In this document: piece by piece, positions 2,180 through 62,799 of the stretch | Layout: the number at the start of each line of letters is the position of its first letter | Position numbering within the stretch: the first letter of the stretch is position 1 | Assembly (NCBI GenBank): GCA_027451405.1 | Contig: DAIDJM010000033.1 | Span: 62,001 to 126,000, forward strand | DNA: 64,000 nt | DNA from: Acetobacteraceae bacterium | Lineage (GTDB): Bacteria; Pseudomonadota; Alphaproteobacteria; Acetobacterales; Acetobacteraceae | Direction of reading: 5' to 3' | Position numbers and translations under genes: made by a program | Notes under the pieces: generated by a model | What the model saw: the letters and a program-made list of their open reading frames with translations, nothing else | Database searches by the model: none | What the model was told of the DNA's origin: nothing

Positions 2180-3535
2180 ATGTCCAATCCGGGCGAGGAA
2201 GATACGAGGCCGGCGGTCTCCGTGCCGCAACTCGCGGCCTGGCTTGCCGAGGGCGGGAAGCTGCCGTCTTCGTTCCGTATTGGCACTGAGCACGAAAAGT
2301 TCGGCTTCTACCGCGCCGGTCATGCACGGCAATTCGCGCCGCCGCCCTACGAGCCGGCGGGCATCCGCGCGATGCTCGAGGGAATCGGGGCGCGCGGCTT
2401 CGAGCCGATCCGCGACCAGGGAAATTTGATCGGGCTGAAGCTCGATGGGGCCGGCCTGTCTCTCGAACCTGGGGGACAATTCGAATTATCCGGTGCGCCG
2501 CTCCGGACCCTGCACGAGACCCGCGACGAGCTCGACCTCCATTTCGAGCAGGTGCGGGCCGTGGGAGAAGCGCTCGGGATCGGTTTCGCGCCGCTCGGCT
2601 TTCACCCGATCGCGCGGCGCGAAGACATGCCGGTCATGCCGAAAAGCCGGTATGCGATCATGCGGCGCTACATGCCGCTCGTAGGCACGCTCGGCCTCGA
2701 CATGATGTTGCGGACCTGCACCGTTCAGGTGAACCTGGATTTCGAGAATGAAGCGGATATGCGGCGCAAGCTGCAGGTCGGTCTCAAGCTTCAGCCGGTG
2801 GCGACGGCCCTGTTCGCGAACTCGCCGTTCACCGAGGGCAAGCCGAACGGCTTTCTCTCGGCCCGCGCCAATGTCTGGACCGATACGGATCCCGATCGCA
2901 CCGGGATTCCGGCGGTCATGCTGGCGCCCGATTTCGGCTTCGAGCGCTATGTCGAATGGCTGCTCGACGTGCCGATGTATTTCGTCGCCCGCGGCGGGAA
3001 GCTGATCGACGCGGCGGGTGCGTCGTTCCGGCAGTTTCTCGCCGGGCGCGTGCCGCAACTGGCCGGCGTTCGCGCCACGCTGGGTGATTTCGCCGATCAC
3101 GTCACCACCGTCTTCACCGACGTGCGGCTCAAGCGTTTCCTCGAGATGCGCGGCGCGGATGCGGGCACGCCGGCGATGATGCTGGCGCAATCGGCGCTCT
3201 GGGTCGGATTGCTCTACGACCCTGCTGCGCTGGAAGCGGCGGTGGCGTTGGTTCGGAACGTTTCCGCCGCGACCGCGCAGGGCTGGCGGCAGCGCGTGCC
3301 GCGAGAGGGTCTCTCGGTGCCCTGGGGCGGCGGTACGCTGCGCGATCTGGCCCGGGACGCCGTTGCGATCGCCCGGCAGGGTCTCGTCGCCCGAAGCCTC
3401 GGGGAAGAGATCTATCTCGCGCCGCTCGAGGCGATCGTGGCGGGAGCGCCGACTCAGGCGGAACATTGGCTTGCGCGGTATCATGGTCCGTGGCGGGGCG
3501 ATGCCAGCCGGATCTTCGAGGAAGCGAAGGTCTGA
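2180..3535 (+). CDS. gshA: Glutamate--cysteine ligase (plant/alphaproteobacterial type)
   Basis: Catalyses the ATP-dependent first step of glutathione synthesis. At 451 residues it fits the plant-like class found in alphaproteobacteria. Visible motifs are FRIGTEHEKFGF near residue 33 (Glu-binding start of the catalytic domain), GGQFELSG near residue 96 and CTVQVNLDF near residue 180. The ATG at 2180 is preceded by the Shine-Dalgarno-like CCAGGAG. It lies 30 nt after rsmE. The segment after it, 3536-3683, holds a short GC-rich hairpin and no gene. Confidence 0.92.
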   Translation: MSNPGEEDTRPAVSVPQLAAWLAEGGKLPSSFRIGTEHEKFGFYRAGHARQFAPPPYEPAGIRAMLEGIGARGFEPIRDQGNLIGLKLDGAGLSLEPGGQFELSGAPLRTLHETRDELDLHFEQVRAVGEALGIGFAPLGFHPIARREDMPVMPKSRYAIMRRYMPLVGTLGLDMMLRTCTVQVNLDFENEADMRRKLQVGLKLQPVATALFANSPFTEGKPNGFLSARANVWTDTDPDRTGIPAVMLAPDFGFERYVEWLLDVPMYFVARGGKLIDAAGASFRQFLAGRVPQLAGVRATLGDFADHVTTVFTDVRLKRFLEMRGADAGTPAMMLAQSALWVGLLYDPAALEAAVALVRNVSAATAQGWRQRVPREGLSVPWGGGTLRDLARDAVAIARQGLVARSLGEEIYLAPLEAIVAGAPTQAEHWLARYHGPWRGDASRIFEEAKV

Positions 3536-3546
3536 ATGCCGGGCCC

Positions 3547-3562
3547 GGGGCCTCTCGGCCCC
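3547..3562. terminator. GC-rich hairpin after gshA (family A inner hairpin)
   Basis: Perfect 6-bp stem GGGGCC/GGCCCC with a TCTC loop, just downstream of the gshA stop. The same stem with loop TTTC or GAAA is the inner hairpin of the family A repeats elsewhere in the window, so this may be a remnant copy. There is no T-run, so intrinsic termination is not certain. Confidence 0.4.
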
Positions 3563-3683
3563 CGCCGCGCGCGGCTTGGGCCGGGATGCCGGAAAAGCAC
3601 GCGTATCAGACGCTTTCACGCTGTAGCAGAAGAGTAACCTCGCCGCCATTTTCCCGTCCGATTCGGGTTGTTAAGCCAGTGGC

Positions 3684-4619
3684 ATGGAGCGGATTCCGCA
3701 GCGGCTGCGCCGCGCTCAGCTCGAACGGATGCATCTGCCGCGGTTCGGGCAGACCGAACCGCGCGCCGTGCTGCCTCGGCAACGACACCTGCTGCGCCAG
3801 GCCCGGGCGGCGCGGCGGGGCCTCTGGCTCGCCGTGCTGACGCTCCCGTCGCTGCTGGTCCAGGCATGTCTCCTGCTGCTGCCCGGACGCGCGAAAGTGG
3901 CGTTCGCGCGGGGGTACTGGATGTTGGCGACGCGCGCGATCGGCGTGCAGGTCCGCGTGGTGGGACGCGCGGCCGGCGGCGGCGGTCGGCCGGTGCTCTA
4001 TGTGAGCAATCACTCCTCGTGGCTGGATATCCCGGTGCTCGGGGGCGTGCTGCCGGCCTGCTTCGTCTCGAAGGACGACGTGGCGGCGTGGCCGGTGATC
4101 GGCACCGTCGCGCGTCTCGGCCGGACCGTGTTCGTGAGCCGCAATCGCGGGAATACCGGCCGCGAACGGGACGCCATGCGGGAGCGGCTCGCCGCCGGCG
4201 ACGATCTGGTGCTGTTTCCGGAAGGGACGAGTTCGGACGGGTCGCGCGTGCTGCCGTTCCGCTCCGCCTTTTTCGACGCGGCCTATGGCGACGTGAAGCC
4301 GCTGATCCAGCCGGTTTCCGTGGTCTATGACCGGCTTGCCGGACTGCCGGTGAGCCACGCATCGCGCACCGTGTTCGCCTGGTATGGGGATATGAGCCTC
4401 GCACCGCATTTCTGGCAGCTGGCGCAGTGGCGCGGGAAGCGGGTGACGGTGCTGCTGCACCGGCCGATCGATCCGGCGGATTTTCCGACCCGCAAGGCGC
4501 TGGCGCAGGCCGCGTGGCAGGCGGTGGCGGATGGGGCCGCGGCGCTGCGGCAGAACCGGCCGGCGCGGCCGTTGCCGGTGGCGGAGCCGGAGATTGTTGG
4601 CGAGCCAGTGTTTGCTTAG
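3684..4619 (+). CDS. plsC: 1-acyl-sn-glycerol-3-phosphate acyltransferase
   Basis: Membrane-associated acyltransferase that converts lysophosphatidate to phosphatidate. Its hallmark motifs are NHSSWLD near residue 110 (the catalytic NHx4D) and LFPEGTSSDG near residue 177. A hydrophobic helix lies near residues 48-66. At 311 residues it is longer than short PlsC proteins because of a basic 45-residue N-terminus. The start is uncertain: a second ATG lies at 3729. A long perfect inverted repeat follows immediately before miaB. Confidence 0.9.
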   Translation: MERIPQRLRRAQLERMHLPRFGQTEPRAVLPRQRHLLRQARAARRGLWLAVLTLPSLLVQACLLLLPGRAKVAFARGYWMLATRAIGVQVRVVGRAAGGGGRPVLYVSNHSSWLDIPVLGGVLPACFVSKDDVAAWPVIGTVARLGRTVFVSRNRGNTGRERDAMRERLAAGDDLVLFPEGTSSDGSRVLPFRSAFFDAAYGDVKPLIQPVSVVYDRLAGLPVSHASRTVFAWYGDMSLAPHFWQLAQWRGKRVTVLLHRPIDPADFPTRKALAQAAWQAVADGAAALRQNRPARPLPVAEPEIVGEPVFA

Positions 4620-4622
4620 AGG

Positions 4623-4717
4623 TGCCTCCGGCGGGCAGGGGCGTTGCCCCTCGCCTTTGGCGCTTGGACCAAGGGCGCGCCAAAGGCGAGGGGCAACGCC
4701 CCTGCCCGCCGGAGGCA
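4623..4717. repeat. Family A element: perfect 41-bp inverted repeat over the miaB RBS
   Basis: Arms 4623-4663 and 4677-4717 are exact reverse complements over 41 nt, separated by a 13-nt loop. The left end reads TGCCTCCGGCGGGCAGGGG and the right end CCCCTGCCCGCCGGAGGCA. The last bases of the right arm, GGAGG at 4711-4715, are the Shine-Dalgarno of miaB, whose ATG is at 4722. In RNA this would form an extremely stable hairpin that buries the ribosome-binding site. It is the most symmetric member of a repeat family seen about ten times in the window. It may also end plsC transcripts. Confidence 0.9.
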
Positions 4718-4721
4718 AAGC

Positions 4722-6055
4722 ATGAACCGCAAAAAGCTCCACGTGATCACCTGGGGCTGTCAGATGAACGTCTACGACAGCGGCCGCATGGAGGACGTGC
4801 TCCGTCCCCTCGGCTACGCGCCCGTGGACGCGCCGGCCGACGCCGACATGGTGATCCTCAACACCTGCCATATCCGCGACCGCGCCACCGAGAAGGTGTT
4901 CTCCGAGCTCGGACGGCTCCGCGCGCTGCGCGACGAGACCGGCCGGCCCGGGATCATCGCGGTGGCTGGCTGCGTCGCCCAGGCCGAGGGGCAGGAAATT
5001 CTCGCCCGCGCGCCGTTCGTCGATCTCGTGGTTGGCCCGCAGGCCTATCACCGGCTGCCGGAGCTGGTCGCGCGCGCGGCGCGGGCCGGGGGCGCCGTGA
5101 TCGACACGGATTTTCCGGCCGAGAGCAAGTTCGACCATCTGCCGGAGGAACGGACGGCGCCCGGCGTCACCGCTTTCCTCACGATCCAGGAAGGCTGCGA
5201 CAAATTCTGCGCCTTCTGCGTGGTGCCCTATACGCGCGGCGCCGAGGCGAGCCGGCCGGCCGGCGCGGTGATCGCCGAGGCGCGGCGGCTTGTCGCGGCC
5301 GGGGCGCGGGAGATCACGCTGCTTGGGCAGAACGTGAATGCCTGGCATGGCGAGGCGCCGGATGGCGGCACCTGGGGGCTCGGGCGGCTGATCCGCGCGC
5401 TCGCGGACATTCCGGGCTTGGCGCGAATCCGTTACACGACGTCCCATCCGCGCGACATGGATGACGACCTCATCGATGCGCACGGGCAAGTGCCGGCACT
5501 GATGCCGTTCCTGCACTTGCCGGTGCAGTCCGGTTCGGATCAGGTGTTGCGGGCGATGAACCGCGGCCACGATGTCCCGTTCTACGAACGATTGGTCGAG
5601 CGGCTGCGGGCGGCGCGGCCGGACCTGGCGCTTTCCACCGATTTCATCGTCGGCCATCCCGGCGAGAGCGAGGCGGATTTCGATGCGACAATGCGGCTCG
5701 TCGAGCGGGTGACGTTCGCCTCCGCCTTCAGCTTCAAATATTCGGCGCGGCCCGGCACGCCGGCGGCCGGGCTGCCGCAGATCGAGGAGTCCGTGCGCGA
5801 CCGGCGGCTGCAGACCCTGCAGGCGCTGCTGCGCGACCAGCAGGCCGAATTCAATGCGGGGTGCGTCGGGCTGACGCTGCCGGTGCTGATCACCGGGCCG
5901 GGGCGCCATCCGGGCCAGATCGCAGGTCGGTCGCCCTACCTGCAGCCTGTGCATCTGACCGGACCGATTTCGGCGGTCGGGCAGGAATTGCCCGTGCATA
6001 TCGCCGCCAGCCACCCCAACTCTCTGGCCGGAACCATCGAGGAGCGAGCCTGCGC

Positions 6056-6059
<4 letters not shown>
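4722..6059 (+). CDS. miaB: tRNA-2-methylthio-N6-dimethylallyladenosine synthase
   Basis: Radical-SAM methylthiotransferase that modifies A37 of tRNAs reading UNN codons. The N-terminal UPF0004 domain supplies three cluster cysteines (WGCQMN, NTCHIRD, AGCVAQ). The radical-SAM motif CDKFCAFC lies near residues 159-166. A C-terminal TRAM-like domain ends the 445-residue protein. The ATG at 4722 is chosen because residues after it start with the conserved [13 protein letters not shown] and because GGAGG lies 6 nt upstream, inside the hairpin repeat. miaB heads the miaB-phoH-ybeY-corC block known from many proteobacteria. Its stop overlaps the phoH TTG start. Confidence 0.96.
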
Positions 6060-7076
<1,017 letters not shown>

Positions 7077-8455: not shown

Positions 8456-8480
8456 AGCGACGCGCGTTCGGGTTGGGGCG

Positions 8481-8578
8481 TGCCTCCGGCGGCCCGGCCT
8501 CCGCCCCGCTGCGGCCGAAAGGCCCCACCCTTCAGGGGGTTTAGGGCCTCTCGGGCCCTGTCCGGGCCGCCGGAGGCA
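8481..8578. repeat. Family A repeat copy downstream of corC
   Basis: Outer arms 8481-8497 (TGCCTCCGGCGGCCCGG) and 8562-8578 are perfect 17-nt inverted repeats. Inside are GGCC-GAAA-GGCC and an AGGGCC/GGCCCT hairpin at 8543-8559. The right arm is identical to sequences at 16594-16610 and 46742-46758. It lies between corC and the GH16 gene and could shield or end the upstream operon. Confidence 0.8.
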
Positions 8579-8627
8579 CCTGCCGGCCGCAGACGAAACC
8601 GGGCGCCTGCCCAAGAGTTGAACACCG

Positions 8628-16487: not shown

Positions 16488-16610
16488 TCTGCGGGCGCAA
16501 GCTCCGCCCCCCTTGCGTCCGCAGATCGGACCGTTGGCGCGTCGTCCCGCTAGCCGCTGCGGCCGCCAGTGCCCCAGCTTGTCCCGCGCAGAGCCGGGCC
16601 GCCGGAGGCA
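16488..16610. repeat. Family A repeat copy between AraC gene and aroKB
   Basis: Contains a 14-bp hairpin (16488-16501 with 16512-16525, one mismatch) and ends in the family's right terminus CCGGGCCGCCGGAGGCA at 16594-16610. It lies just after the 3' end of the leftward aroK-aroB gene, so it may terminate that transcript. Its left terminus is eroded. Confidence 0.65.
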
Positions 16611-46656: not shown

Positions 46657-46664
46657 AAACGGTC

Positions 46665-46758
46665 GCCTCCGGCGGGCAGAGGCTCCGCCTCTGCACTCCG
46701 CTGGGGCCGAAAGGCCCCAGACCCCGTTACTTCAGAATAGCCCGGGCCGCCGGAGGCA
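46665..46758. repeat. Family A repeat copy, best-preserved composite form
   Basis: Left terminus GCCTCCGGCGGGC (46665-46677), hairpin GCAGAGGC-TCC-GCCTCTGC (46676-46694), hairpin CTGGGGCC-GAAA-GGCCCCAG (46701-46720) and right terminus CCGGGCCGCCGGAGGCA (46742-46758). The outer GCCTCCGGCGG and CCGCCGGAGGC ends also pair. It lies between convergent genes, 9 nt from each flank, consistent with a bidirectional terminator. Confidence 0.85.
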
Positions 46759-61515: not shown

Positions 61516-62799
61516 TCATCGCTTCGGGGTGGTGGTGCCACGGCCGCGTTCGGTCTCGCCGTCCTTGGTGATTTCCACCTCTTCGCGCCGCACCGTGTCG
61601 CGCACCGTCTCGACGCGCTCGCTGGTGCCGCGCGTGACCACGACCTCCTCGCGAACCCGCGCCGTCTTGCCGACCACCGCCTCCTCCTCGGATTCCGTTA
61701 CTTCGATGGTGCGGTCGGCGAATTCCGGCGTGACTTCACGCTGCTCGGTGGAGACCGGACGGCGCTCGACCGAGACGCGCTCGCTGCGCAGTGCCACCTG
61801 CTCCTCCACCGGAGTTTCGATGACATAACGACGAATCCGCGTGGTGCCGCGATTGACCACGCGCTTGCCGACCGAGATCTGTTCCTCGCCGAGCGGCAGG
61901 CGCTCTTCTTCGGTGGCGGCGCCGGCGCGCGCGGTATCAGTACCCGCCGTGCGGCGCGGCGGCGTGCCGGCGGCGCGCCGTTCGCCGGCCATCTCGGCCG
62001 CAACCGCGGCCGATCCGCTCGCCGCGCGATCGGTGCCGGTTCTCATTTCGGTGGCGCGCGGCGTGGCGGCGCCGACGCCGTAGGTCTGCGCGCGTTCGTC
62101 GACGTCCACCGGATGGTGCCGCTCGAGAATGGCGGCAACCGCCTCCGCATGATCTTCGGGCACGCGCACGCTCACCACATGCGAGCCGCGTTGCAGACCC
62201 TGTTCATAGGTCTCGGCATCGCTCTCGCTCTCGCCGCCGAAAATGGAGGTCCAGAAACCTTCCTTTTTTGGCGCCGTCTCGTGGGAACGGCTCTCCGCTG
62301 AATGCTGCGAGATCGCGGATGCCGGAACATTCGACTCGCGCAGGTCGAGCACCGCCGCAGCGGCCTGGTCCTTCGAGTCGAACATCGCAACGATCGTCTG
62401 TTCCTCCATCTTGCCTCTCCTTGCTTCCGCGTCTCGCGTGATGCGCGAAATTACCGCTCGCTGCTCACGAAGTTGCAGGGTCTCGATATGTTGTGAGGTG
62501 GTCCGCACGCGCCGCAGACGCACCTCCTCGCGGAGCCGCAGACGCCGCTCCACGACCAGAACTTCCTCCACCACGGGGATGATCGTGATCTCGCCCTCTT
62601 CCCGAACCGGCGGAGCGGAGTCGACAAAGATGCCGACCGGAACACGCTCGATTTCGATTTGCTCCCGCGCCAGTGCGGCCTCGACGCGCTCCTCCCGCAC
62701 GCCGGTGATGGTCTCGACACGGAGGATATCGCCGCCCACGCGGCGGCGTTCGACCGTGACCTGCTCTTCATGCAGCGGCAGGACGATCTCGGGATCCAT
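61516..62799 (-). CDS. Fused double-DUF2382 stress protein with an internal start
   Basis: 427 residues. Residues 1-130 are a DUF2382/YsnF-type domain (LPLHEEQVTVERRRVGGDIL...EEVLVVERRLRLREEVRLRR). Residues 131-215 resemble a 17M-like stress domain (IVAMFDSKDQAAAAVLDLRE). Residues 290-400 form a second DUF2382 domain (EEISVG-like start, RRYVIETPVEEQVALRSERV, REEVVVTRGTSERVE). An ATG at 62409 inside the frame has AAGGAG 7 nt upstream, a far better site than that of the first ATG, so a shorter 297-residue product is likely also made. DUF2382 proteins are linked to desiccation and oxidative stress. Confidence 0.82.
   Translation of the reverse strand: MDPEIVLPLHEEQVTVERRRVGGDILRVETITGVREERVEAALAREQIEIERVPVGIFVDSAPPVREEGEITIIPVVEEVLVVERRLRLREEVRLRRVRTTSQHIETLQLREQRAVISRITRDAEARRGKMEEQTIVAMFDSKDQAAAAVLDLRESNVPASAISQHSAESRSHETAPKKEGFWTSIFGGESESDAETYEQGLQRGSHVVSVRVPEDHAEAVAAILERHHPVDVDERAQTYGVGAATPRATEMRTGTDRAASGSAAVAAEMAGERRAAGTPPRRTAGTDTARAGAATEEERLPLGEEQISVGKRVVNRGTTRIRRYVIETPVEEQVALRSERVSVERRPVSTEQREVTPEFADRTIEVTESEEEAVVGKTARVREEVVVTRGTSERVETVRDTVRREEVEITKDGETERGRGTTTPKR

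Follow-up and report, generated by a model that had tools for sequence, protein, structure and literature searches.

The gap between plsC and miaB raises the question of where the perfect palindrome that fills it has come from, and how miaB can be expressed if its Shine–Dalgarno (SD) sequence is buried in one of the arms. The window, that is, the whole stretch of 64,000 nucleotides analyzed here, corresponds to positions 62001–126000 of contig C33 in the genome of an Acetobacteraceae bacterium (3.37 Mb, 67-contig draft, 97.66% complete). A preliminary description of this DNA had reported 41-nt arms with a 13-nt loop, which was confirmed exactly, as the arms are 100% complementary with zero mismatches (Table 1). 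The intergenic gap measures 102 nt, of which stem and loop fill 95; the palindrome starts 3 nt past the plsC stop and ends 4 nt before the miaB start. The GGAGG of the right arm was rightly named as the SD of miaB, but it does not make up the final letters of the arm, which ends in GGAGGCA, followed by AAGC and the miaB ATG at 4722. This palindrome is the strongest among the 24 inverted repeats listed in the window (at least 20 nt, distance up to 200) and the longest perfect one in 790,681 bases of the genome compared with arm starts up to 260 nt apart, where the runner-up has 30-nt arms. The RNA of the 4600–4740 region folded with −111.7 kcal/mol versus a mean of −62.74 (standard deviation 3.98) in 200 dinucleotide shuffles, which corresponds to a z value of −12.3.

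Table 1. Features of the plsC–miaB region (window coordinates) and gene pairs with the same layout (contig coordinates; flanking distances from the tags)
Feature	Position	Strand	Flanking distances (nt)	Remarks
plsC-type acyltransferase	3684–4619	+		Pfam PF01553; stop TAG 4617–4619
Left arm	4623–4663	+		tag GCCTCCGGCGG (4624–4634), family hairpin 1 (4637–4651), first half of module M
Stem foot TGCCTCC	4623–4629	+		pairs with 4711–4717
Loop, 13 nt	4664–4676	+		
Right arm	4677–4717	+		perfect inverted copy of left arm; tag CCGCCGGAGGC at 4706–4716
miaB SD, GGAGG	4711–4715	+		6 nt before ATG; stem-paired with CCTCC 4625–4629
miaB	4722–6059	+		Pfam PF00919, PF04055, PF01938; heads the miaB–phoH–ybeY–corC run
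Another inverted pair of the same repeat family	8480–8579	+		downstream of corC
Doublet, plsC–miaB			4 and 5	
Doublet	C35:88938		5 and 4	downstream gene RecQ by Pfam
Doublet	C20:45989		4 and 6	downstream OmpA-domain gene; tag with one mismatch
Doublet	C24:3448		14 and 9	downstream gene bioF-like by eye only
Doublet, pyrF–trpF	C28		5 and 5	OMPdecase, then PRAI
Doublet, recN–ligA	C41		9 and 9	RecN-like (SMC_N just below cut-off), then NAD-dependent DNA ligase
Doublet, malQ–alpha-amylase-family protein	C65		6 and 4	malQ, 4-alpha-glucanotransferase

The miaB start at 4722 is backed by the Pfam UPF0004 match, which begins at residue 5, and the listed MiaB matches of the relatives begin at residues 1–6 with the exception of one locus at a contig end (L096), where the match begins at residue 25. 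The coding model also picks this start, though it gives a bonus for an SD, and an in-frame TTG exists upstream at 4644. The names phoH, ybeY, and corC for the genes after miaB are our assumption from the look of the proteins. An 802-aa open frame on the minus strand (window 3606–6014) spans plsC, the palindrome, and miaB; it was judged to be a shadow of the GC-rich sequence because the retrained coding model prefers the sense genes. The Rfam scan of 4500–4900 gave six matches, all under the gathering score (five miRNA models and isrG), which were read as hairpin artefacts, and membership in an Rfam family was rejected. An intrinsic terminator was likewise rejected, as no T run lies beside the stem (AAGCATG follows it on the plus strand and CCTCTAAGC on the minus strand). 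The terminator scan, which found no terminator, allowed only loops of 3–8 nt and therefore could not have seen this stem.

A dispersed repeat family

The view of the hairpin as a one-off feature of miaB was not borne out. Each arm bears a terminal tag that belongs to a palindromic repeat dispersed in the genome, with hundreds of tag copies: the tag CCGCCGGAGGC has 387 matches in the genome versus 25 for the reversed control, the 17-mer GCCTCCGGCGGNCAGGG has 154 exact matches versus 0, and a BLAST search with the element gave at least 98 matches (best 40 of 319 candidates). The common short unit of about 61 nt consists of GCCTCCGGCGG, hairpin 1 (for example GCAGGGGC-TTT-GCCCCTGC), ACCCC(A/G)CT, hairpin 2 (GGGGCC-GAAA-GGCCCC), and AGACCCC. 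The long form contains module M (for example CTCGCCATCGGTGCTTGAACCGATGGCGCACACGATGGCGAG) between the hairpins, and this module is itself a nested inverted repeat. In 132 of the 207 distinct tag ends, hairpin 1 pairs perfectly over at least 6 bp, versus 7 after shuffling; these perfect stems span 31 different sequences, so the stem is maintained despite changes in its letters. Hairpin 2 was found in 127 of the 207 ends. Units also occur as inverted pairs with the tails facing each other and the tags outward; in seven contigs, the listing comprised 35 facing tag pairs no more than 300 nt apart, with at most one mismatch per tag; 7 of these fall inside called genes, and chance accounts for some. 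The assignment of the plsC–miaB palindrome to this family is solid on the level of sequence, and the explanation shifts from a special miaB hairpin to a dispersed REP-like family with a terminal SD, which here forms a perfect palindrome.

The perfect symmetry of the arms can be traced within the family. The miaB copy follows the long form through the end of module M (…GGCGAG) and then continues with an inverted copy of its own left end, which takes the place of the tail and of hairpin 2. Three sites of the left arm deviate from the usual long form (the loop GTT for TTT, CGCCTTT for CGCCAxx, and GGCGC for GGTGC), and the right arm shows the mirror image of all three family-atypical variants. 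Of the 207 distinct ends, only the two plsC–miaB arms contain GGGGCGTTGCCCC, and the module variant CGCCTTTGGCGC was present in one of the 11 modules that fit the search pattern, namely in the miaB copy. The same variants would hardly be expected in two insertions that arose independently, and copying of one arm from the other is therefore the most likely origin of the palindrome. Such copying would be simplest by template switching at the nested inverted repeat (module M) of a long-form element, while conversion within an inverted pair would be an alternative route. The mirrored variants fit the suggestion in the preliminary description of a recent origin or gene conversion. One study describes that template switching can make or mend perfect reverse-complement arms in a single event (PMC8794818). 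This homogenisation of quasipalindromes resembles the present case in yielding perfect reverse-complement arms and differs from it in that its target here would be a dispersed repeat.

The 17-mer GCCTCCGGCGGNCAGGG was present in 12 of 200 genomes of the same bacterial family including our own, the other 11 holding one or two copies each, and whole-element BLAST against 150 such genomes gave weak short matches (23–36 nt) in at least four besides our own (best five candidates per genome). That this bacterial family is Acetobacteraceae was deduced from the relatives found with MiaB. The 12-base form of the tag stayed near the reversed control in most of the 200 genomes; an exception was a genome of a different genus (G079) with 21 copies versus 0. 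A sibling repeat with the same tag, TGCCTCCGGCGGGC, was recognized in 10 of the 13 stretches read from this genome (L269–L281), where a G-run hairpin and TGCA(C/T)CC come after the tag, and the second hairpin is mostly different. The family at plsC–miaB is therefore a lineage-amplified member of a wider repeat type. Spread by plasmids or phages was rejected, as plasmids gave no match of the typical repeat unit and viral contigs no exact match of a 35-base repeat pattern. The family was not recognized in Rfam or in PMC full text searched for the tag strings, for REPs with an SD, and for palindromic repeats of Acetobacteraceae.

Among the known systems, REP/BIME elements, which are GTAG-tagged, RAYT-linked, and occur in E. 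coli, Pseudomonas, and Stenotrophomonas, are the closest. Parts of two papers depict them as palindromic, extragenic repeats of over 100 copies, with inverted pairs and species-specific amplification, that are likely transcribed (PMC2817692, PMC3733652), and place them between tandem or convergent genes (PMC3733652). Our family is alike in being extragenic and probably transcribed, in its species-specific amplification, in having more than 100 dispersed copies, a palindromic unit with compensated stem changes, and inverted pairs, and in lying in tandem and convergent gaps. It differs in the tag, which is GCCTCCGGCGG in place of GTAG, in having two hairpins in a short unit of about 61 nt versus the single 20–40 bp hairpin of REPs, and in that its end can double as an SD. 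Tetranucleotide tags are not conserved at the feet of 111 units: in the range from 6 nt outside to 4 nt inside each end, GTAG was found at 1, CTAC at 4, CGTC at 5, and GACG at 6 units. The RAYT domain (Y1_Tnp, PF01797) had no match in our genome, while the same search was positive in 5 of 14 control genomes. Membership among RAYT-driven REPs was therefore rejected, and the family was not filed as a GTAG or CGTC REP, because both tag and RAYT were looked for and not found. The CGTC-tagged REPs of Alphaproteobacteria are alike in their host class, in being extragenic, and in having no known dedicated transposase; they differ in the CGTC tag, which is not conserved here, and a passage of PMC3733652 reports them as missing from Acetobacteraceae. 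As regards MITEs, single units of the present family have one tagged end only.

Some further repeats were noticed along the way. The window contains additional tag copies at 16599, 21498, 27150, and 46664–46758 (with one mismatch at 46664), and two facing tag pairs occur among these and the pair downstream of corC. Another perfect palindrome, CTAGAGCGGGTTCACTCTGAC(C) around a 2–4 nt loop, is dispersed in at least four copies over 790,681 bases (C54:199–246, C35:54691–54736, C20:106775–106820, and C20:33290–33335). The spacer of the inverted pair at C20:76845–76910 is a 24-bp perfect inverted repeat (TGGGTGGGGTGGATAGGTCACGTC), and that of the pair at C20:57026–57232 looks similar by eye.

Position of the repeat units and the doublet layout

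The position of the units was determined in stretches of seven contigs (790,681 bases) with genes called by a hexamer model. Of the 81 units placed, 14 were inside called genes and were dropped. The remaining 67 were distributed as 28 in convergent, 38 in tandem, and 1 in divergent gaps, whereas the 353 background gaps of at least 60 nt comprised 61 convergent, 196 tandem, and 96 divergent ones. This means an excess in convergent (Fisher p = 2.8e-5) and a deficit in divergent gaps (p = 1.5e-7), although the counts are not fully independent because the two ends of a pair were counted separately.

The tagged ends stand close to genes. Among the tag-to-stop distances of 0–25 nt, 24 of 29 fell in the 4–10 nt range, as did 13 of 24 tag-to-start distances measured after GGAGGC (binomial p = 0.004). 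The p value rests on the seven-contig sample and takes in none of the extra loci, some of which were chosen for a start codon after the tag, and 11 mostly as inverted tag pairs. A tag located 4–10 nt before a start puts GGAGG 5–11 nt before the codon, which is close to the native spacing, as 55 of the 68 GGAGG-bearing genes (of 660) have the motif 4–10 nt upstream of the start. Both the native spacing and the tag-to-start distances are partly built in, because the hexamer model, with its bonus for ATG and for GGAGG-like motifs 3–18 nt before the start, favors SD-spaced starts. When starts were chosen with no SD bonus, 45 of 177 distinct tag ends had a coding frame starting within 25 nt (in a set enriched for tag–ATG places). 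In the whole genome, the tag is followed by ATG within 1–12 nt at 61 places versus 0 for the control, not all of these being gene starts. The conserved end CCGCCGGAGGC of the repeat, which is now the miaB SD, also precedes other genes at SD spacing. The snug fit to starts is not by itself a proof of selection for SD use, because stops show an equal fit, and the SD position of the tags may simply result from elements that fill small gaps.

The layout seen at plsC–miaB is shared by other gene pairs, and the tagged end nears stops even more often than starts, so the idea of a hairpin specific to miaB had to be given up. By our own count, 15 of the 35 listed facing pairs are in tandem gaps, four of them (miaB, C35, C20, and C24) with both flanking distances of at most 14 nt. 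The doublets on C28 and C41 came from stretches fetched for a nearby ATG, one of which also holds the C65 doublet (Table 1). The alpha-amylase-family protein of C65, which we take to be TreY, starts at TTG if the gene call is right. Several of the gene pairs bridged by doublets presumably belong together in function.

Expression of miaB and competing explanations

The same locus was compared in relatives, and the palindrome proved to be absent: in 66 loci with enough upstream sequence, including at least three duplicates in which the same contig came from two collections, the longest perfect arm upstream of miaB was 10 nt. The genus of our strain is represented by a single genome in the collection, and the best MiaB identity among the 200 genomes of the family is 76%. 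Outside the 66 loci, Caulobacter sp. B11 (L105) was noticed to have an inverted repeat upstream of miaB as well (20 bp, 12-nt loop), which is unrelated. In 41 of the 66 loci, a TTGAC box lies at most 160 nt upstream of the first MiaB residue matched, while mononucleotide shuffling gave an expectation of 0.07 per locus. Most of these boxes read TTGACC and lie at 90–145 nt, followed, by eye, by a CATNTC/GATGTCT-like box; a few (at −6, −9, and −30) are implausible as promoters. From their sequence, the sites look promoter-like in most of the 41 loci. The palindrome occupies the place where these loci have the TTGAC box. In the window, no TTGAC occurs on the plus strand from 3536 to 4721, and the scan of 3500–6100 found no sigma-70-like site, so that a sigma-70 promoter for miaB in this region was rejected. 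As the palindrome sits where the ancestral promoter would be and neither kind of site was found, miaB probably relies on read-through from plsC or from further upstream.

In a transcript read through from plsC, the stem would sit in the miaB mRNA with the SD locked within it. The preliminary description had held that the hairpin should block initiation unless it is unwound, cleaved, or bypassed, and the partition-function model agrees with such a block: the mean probability of the miaB SD being unpaired was 0.0001. When the first 6, 8, 10, or 12 nt after the plsC stop were held open, it rose to 0.15, 0.52, 0.78, and 0.57, respectively. The model contains neither proteins nor kinetics, and the seven pairs and ten single units examined with it were picked by hand. 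In the six other doublets, the unpaired probability was 0.0001 in five and 0.20 in C20, and release at +10 nt was predicted to be 0.97 in C20, 0.43 in C28, 0.22 in C35, 0.14 in C65, 0.002 in C41, and 0 in C24. Release of at least 0.2 was thus predicted in four of the seven doublets, of which C20 began at 0.20. In the model, the miaB copy is both strongly locked and among the most releasable doublets, as only 3 nt separate its stem from the plsC stop. For the ten single units without a ribosome, the values ranged from 0.0006 to 0.74, with eight above 0.05.

Taken together, we propose, with a probability of about one half, that the palindrome represents a doublet, or inverted pair, of a REP/BIME-like repeat that this Acetobacteraceae lineage has amplified, and that it couples miaB to plsC by SD release. 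The coupling itself is a prediction of the folding model. A ribosome stopping at the TAG of plsC would melt the first 7–10 nt past the stop and set GGAGGCA free, as the stem foot is inside the expected footprint of a ribosome halted there, judged by the known footprint size of stopped ribosomes. miaB, and perhaps the later genes too, would then be translated mostly in the wake of plsC. Operons are known in which translation is coupled by freeing a sequestered SD, and the modelled situation resembles this mechanism in that the SD is paired with the sequence just past the upstream stop and would be opened by the upstream ribosome. It differs in that the switch rides on a dispersed repeat recurring at unrelated gene pairs, and in the 102-nt gap in place of an overlap. 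Part of a study on three E. coli gene pairs reports that termination–reinitiation was lost or cut by 80%–90% at +38 nt (PMC10666635). At a gap of 102 nt, coupling would therefore have to rely on unfolding, or on a stem that loops out the gap; in the latter variant, the folded element may bring the effective stop-to-start distance down to 7 nt for the ribosome. The predicted release below 0.05 in two of the seven doublets (C41 and C24) and of 0.14–0.22 in two more (C65 and C35) argues against coupling, and so does the expectation that a perfect 41-bp duplex is an RNase III substrate.

A broader version of this proposal, which we put forward only tentatively, is that the family acts as a portable translational coupler. 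Its inverted pairs might plug operon gaps with tags 4–9 nt past the stop and 4–9 nt before the start, supplying an SD and hiding it by the post-stop nucleotides. The spread of the repeat might in this way rewire operons (plsC–miaB, pyrF–trpF, recN–ligA, and others) into pairs gated by the stop codon, and at miaB, where the native promoter is missing, the switch might have reached perfection as a 41-bp stem. The usual view of short dispersed palindromes is that they decorate 3′-ends, while here the end of a repeat equals a strong SD, is found at SD spacing before many genes, and in inverted pairs buries this SD just behind the upstream stop codon. If the proposal is true, selfish repeats rewire operon translation, and a single genome offers natural variants for measuring how stem length and stop-to-stem distance affect coupling.

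Several other explanations have to be weighed against SD release. The element could be a passive REP-like repeat tolerated between the genes, with the hairpin protecting or attenuating the plsC 3′-end, miaB being translated weakly but adequately without coupling, and the GGAGG end kept or tolerated simply as a usable SD. The near-absence of units from divergent gaps and their enrichment in convergent ones, which parts of PMC3733652 report for other REPs, would suit this, as would the fit to stops that is at least as snug as that to starts. We nevertheless regard it as rather doubtful, since full pairing of the miaB SD in a perfect stem should, by the model, cost translation of a gene whose run with phoH, ybeY, and corC is conserved in relatives. 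RNase III is known to cut duplexes as long as 41 bp, and its gene is encoded in the genome (C45:4454–4837, above the Pfam cut-off), so the perfect duplex might be a processing site that splits the plsC and miaB messages and sets both ends, with miaB translated from the processed RNA. This seems unlikely, as the SD would stay paired with the left-arm foot after a cut high up in the stem, and no other inverted repeat of the sample has so long a perfect stem.

The two remaining possibilities concern the existence of the hairpin in the miaB mRNA or in the genome. A promoter inside or just after the element would produce a leaderless or short-leader miaB mRNA, in which the hairpin never forms. Given the TTGAC boxes of the relatives, some promoter would be expected upstream of miaB, but the window lacks such sites in the ranges given above, and we hold this to be very improbable. 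Even less credible is that the perfect arm is an assembler fold-back or a collapsed copy of an imperfect element. The genome is indeed a 67-contig draft, and perfect symmetry is what a fold-back error would give; however, plsC and miaB are neighbors in relatives too (a plsC match was found in 44 of 80 miaB loci, just upstream of miaB wherever coordinates were printed), other inverted pairs of the same genome are imperfect, and the ends of the palindrome coincide with the own ends of the repeat family.
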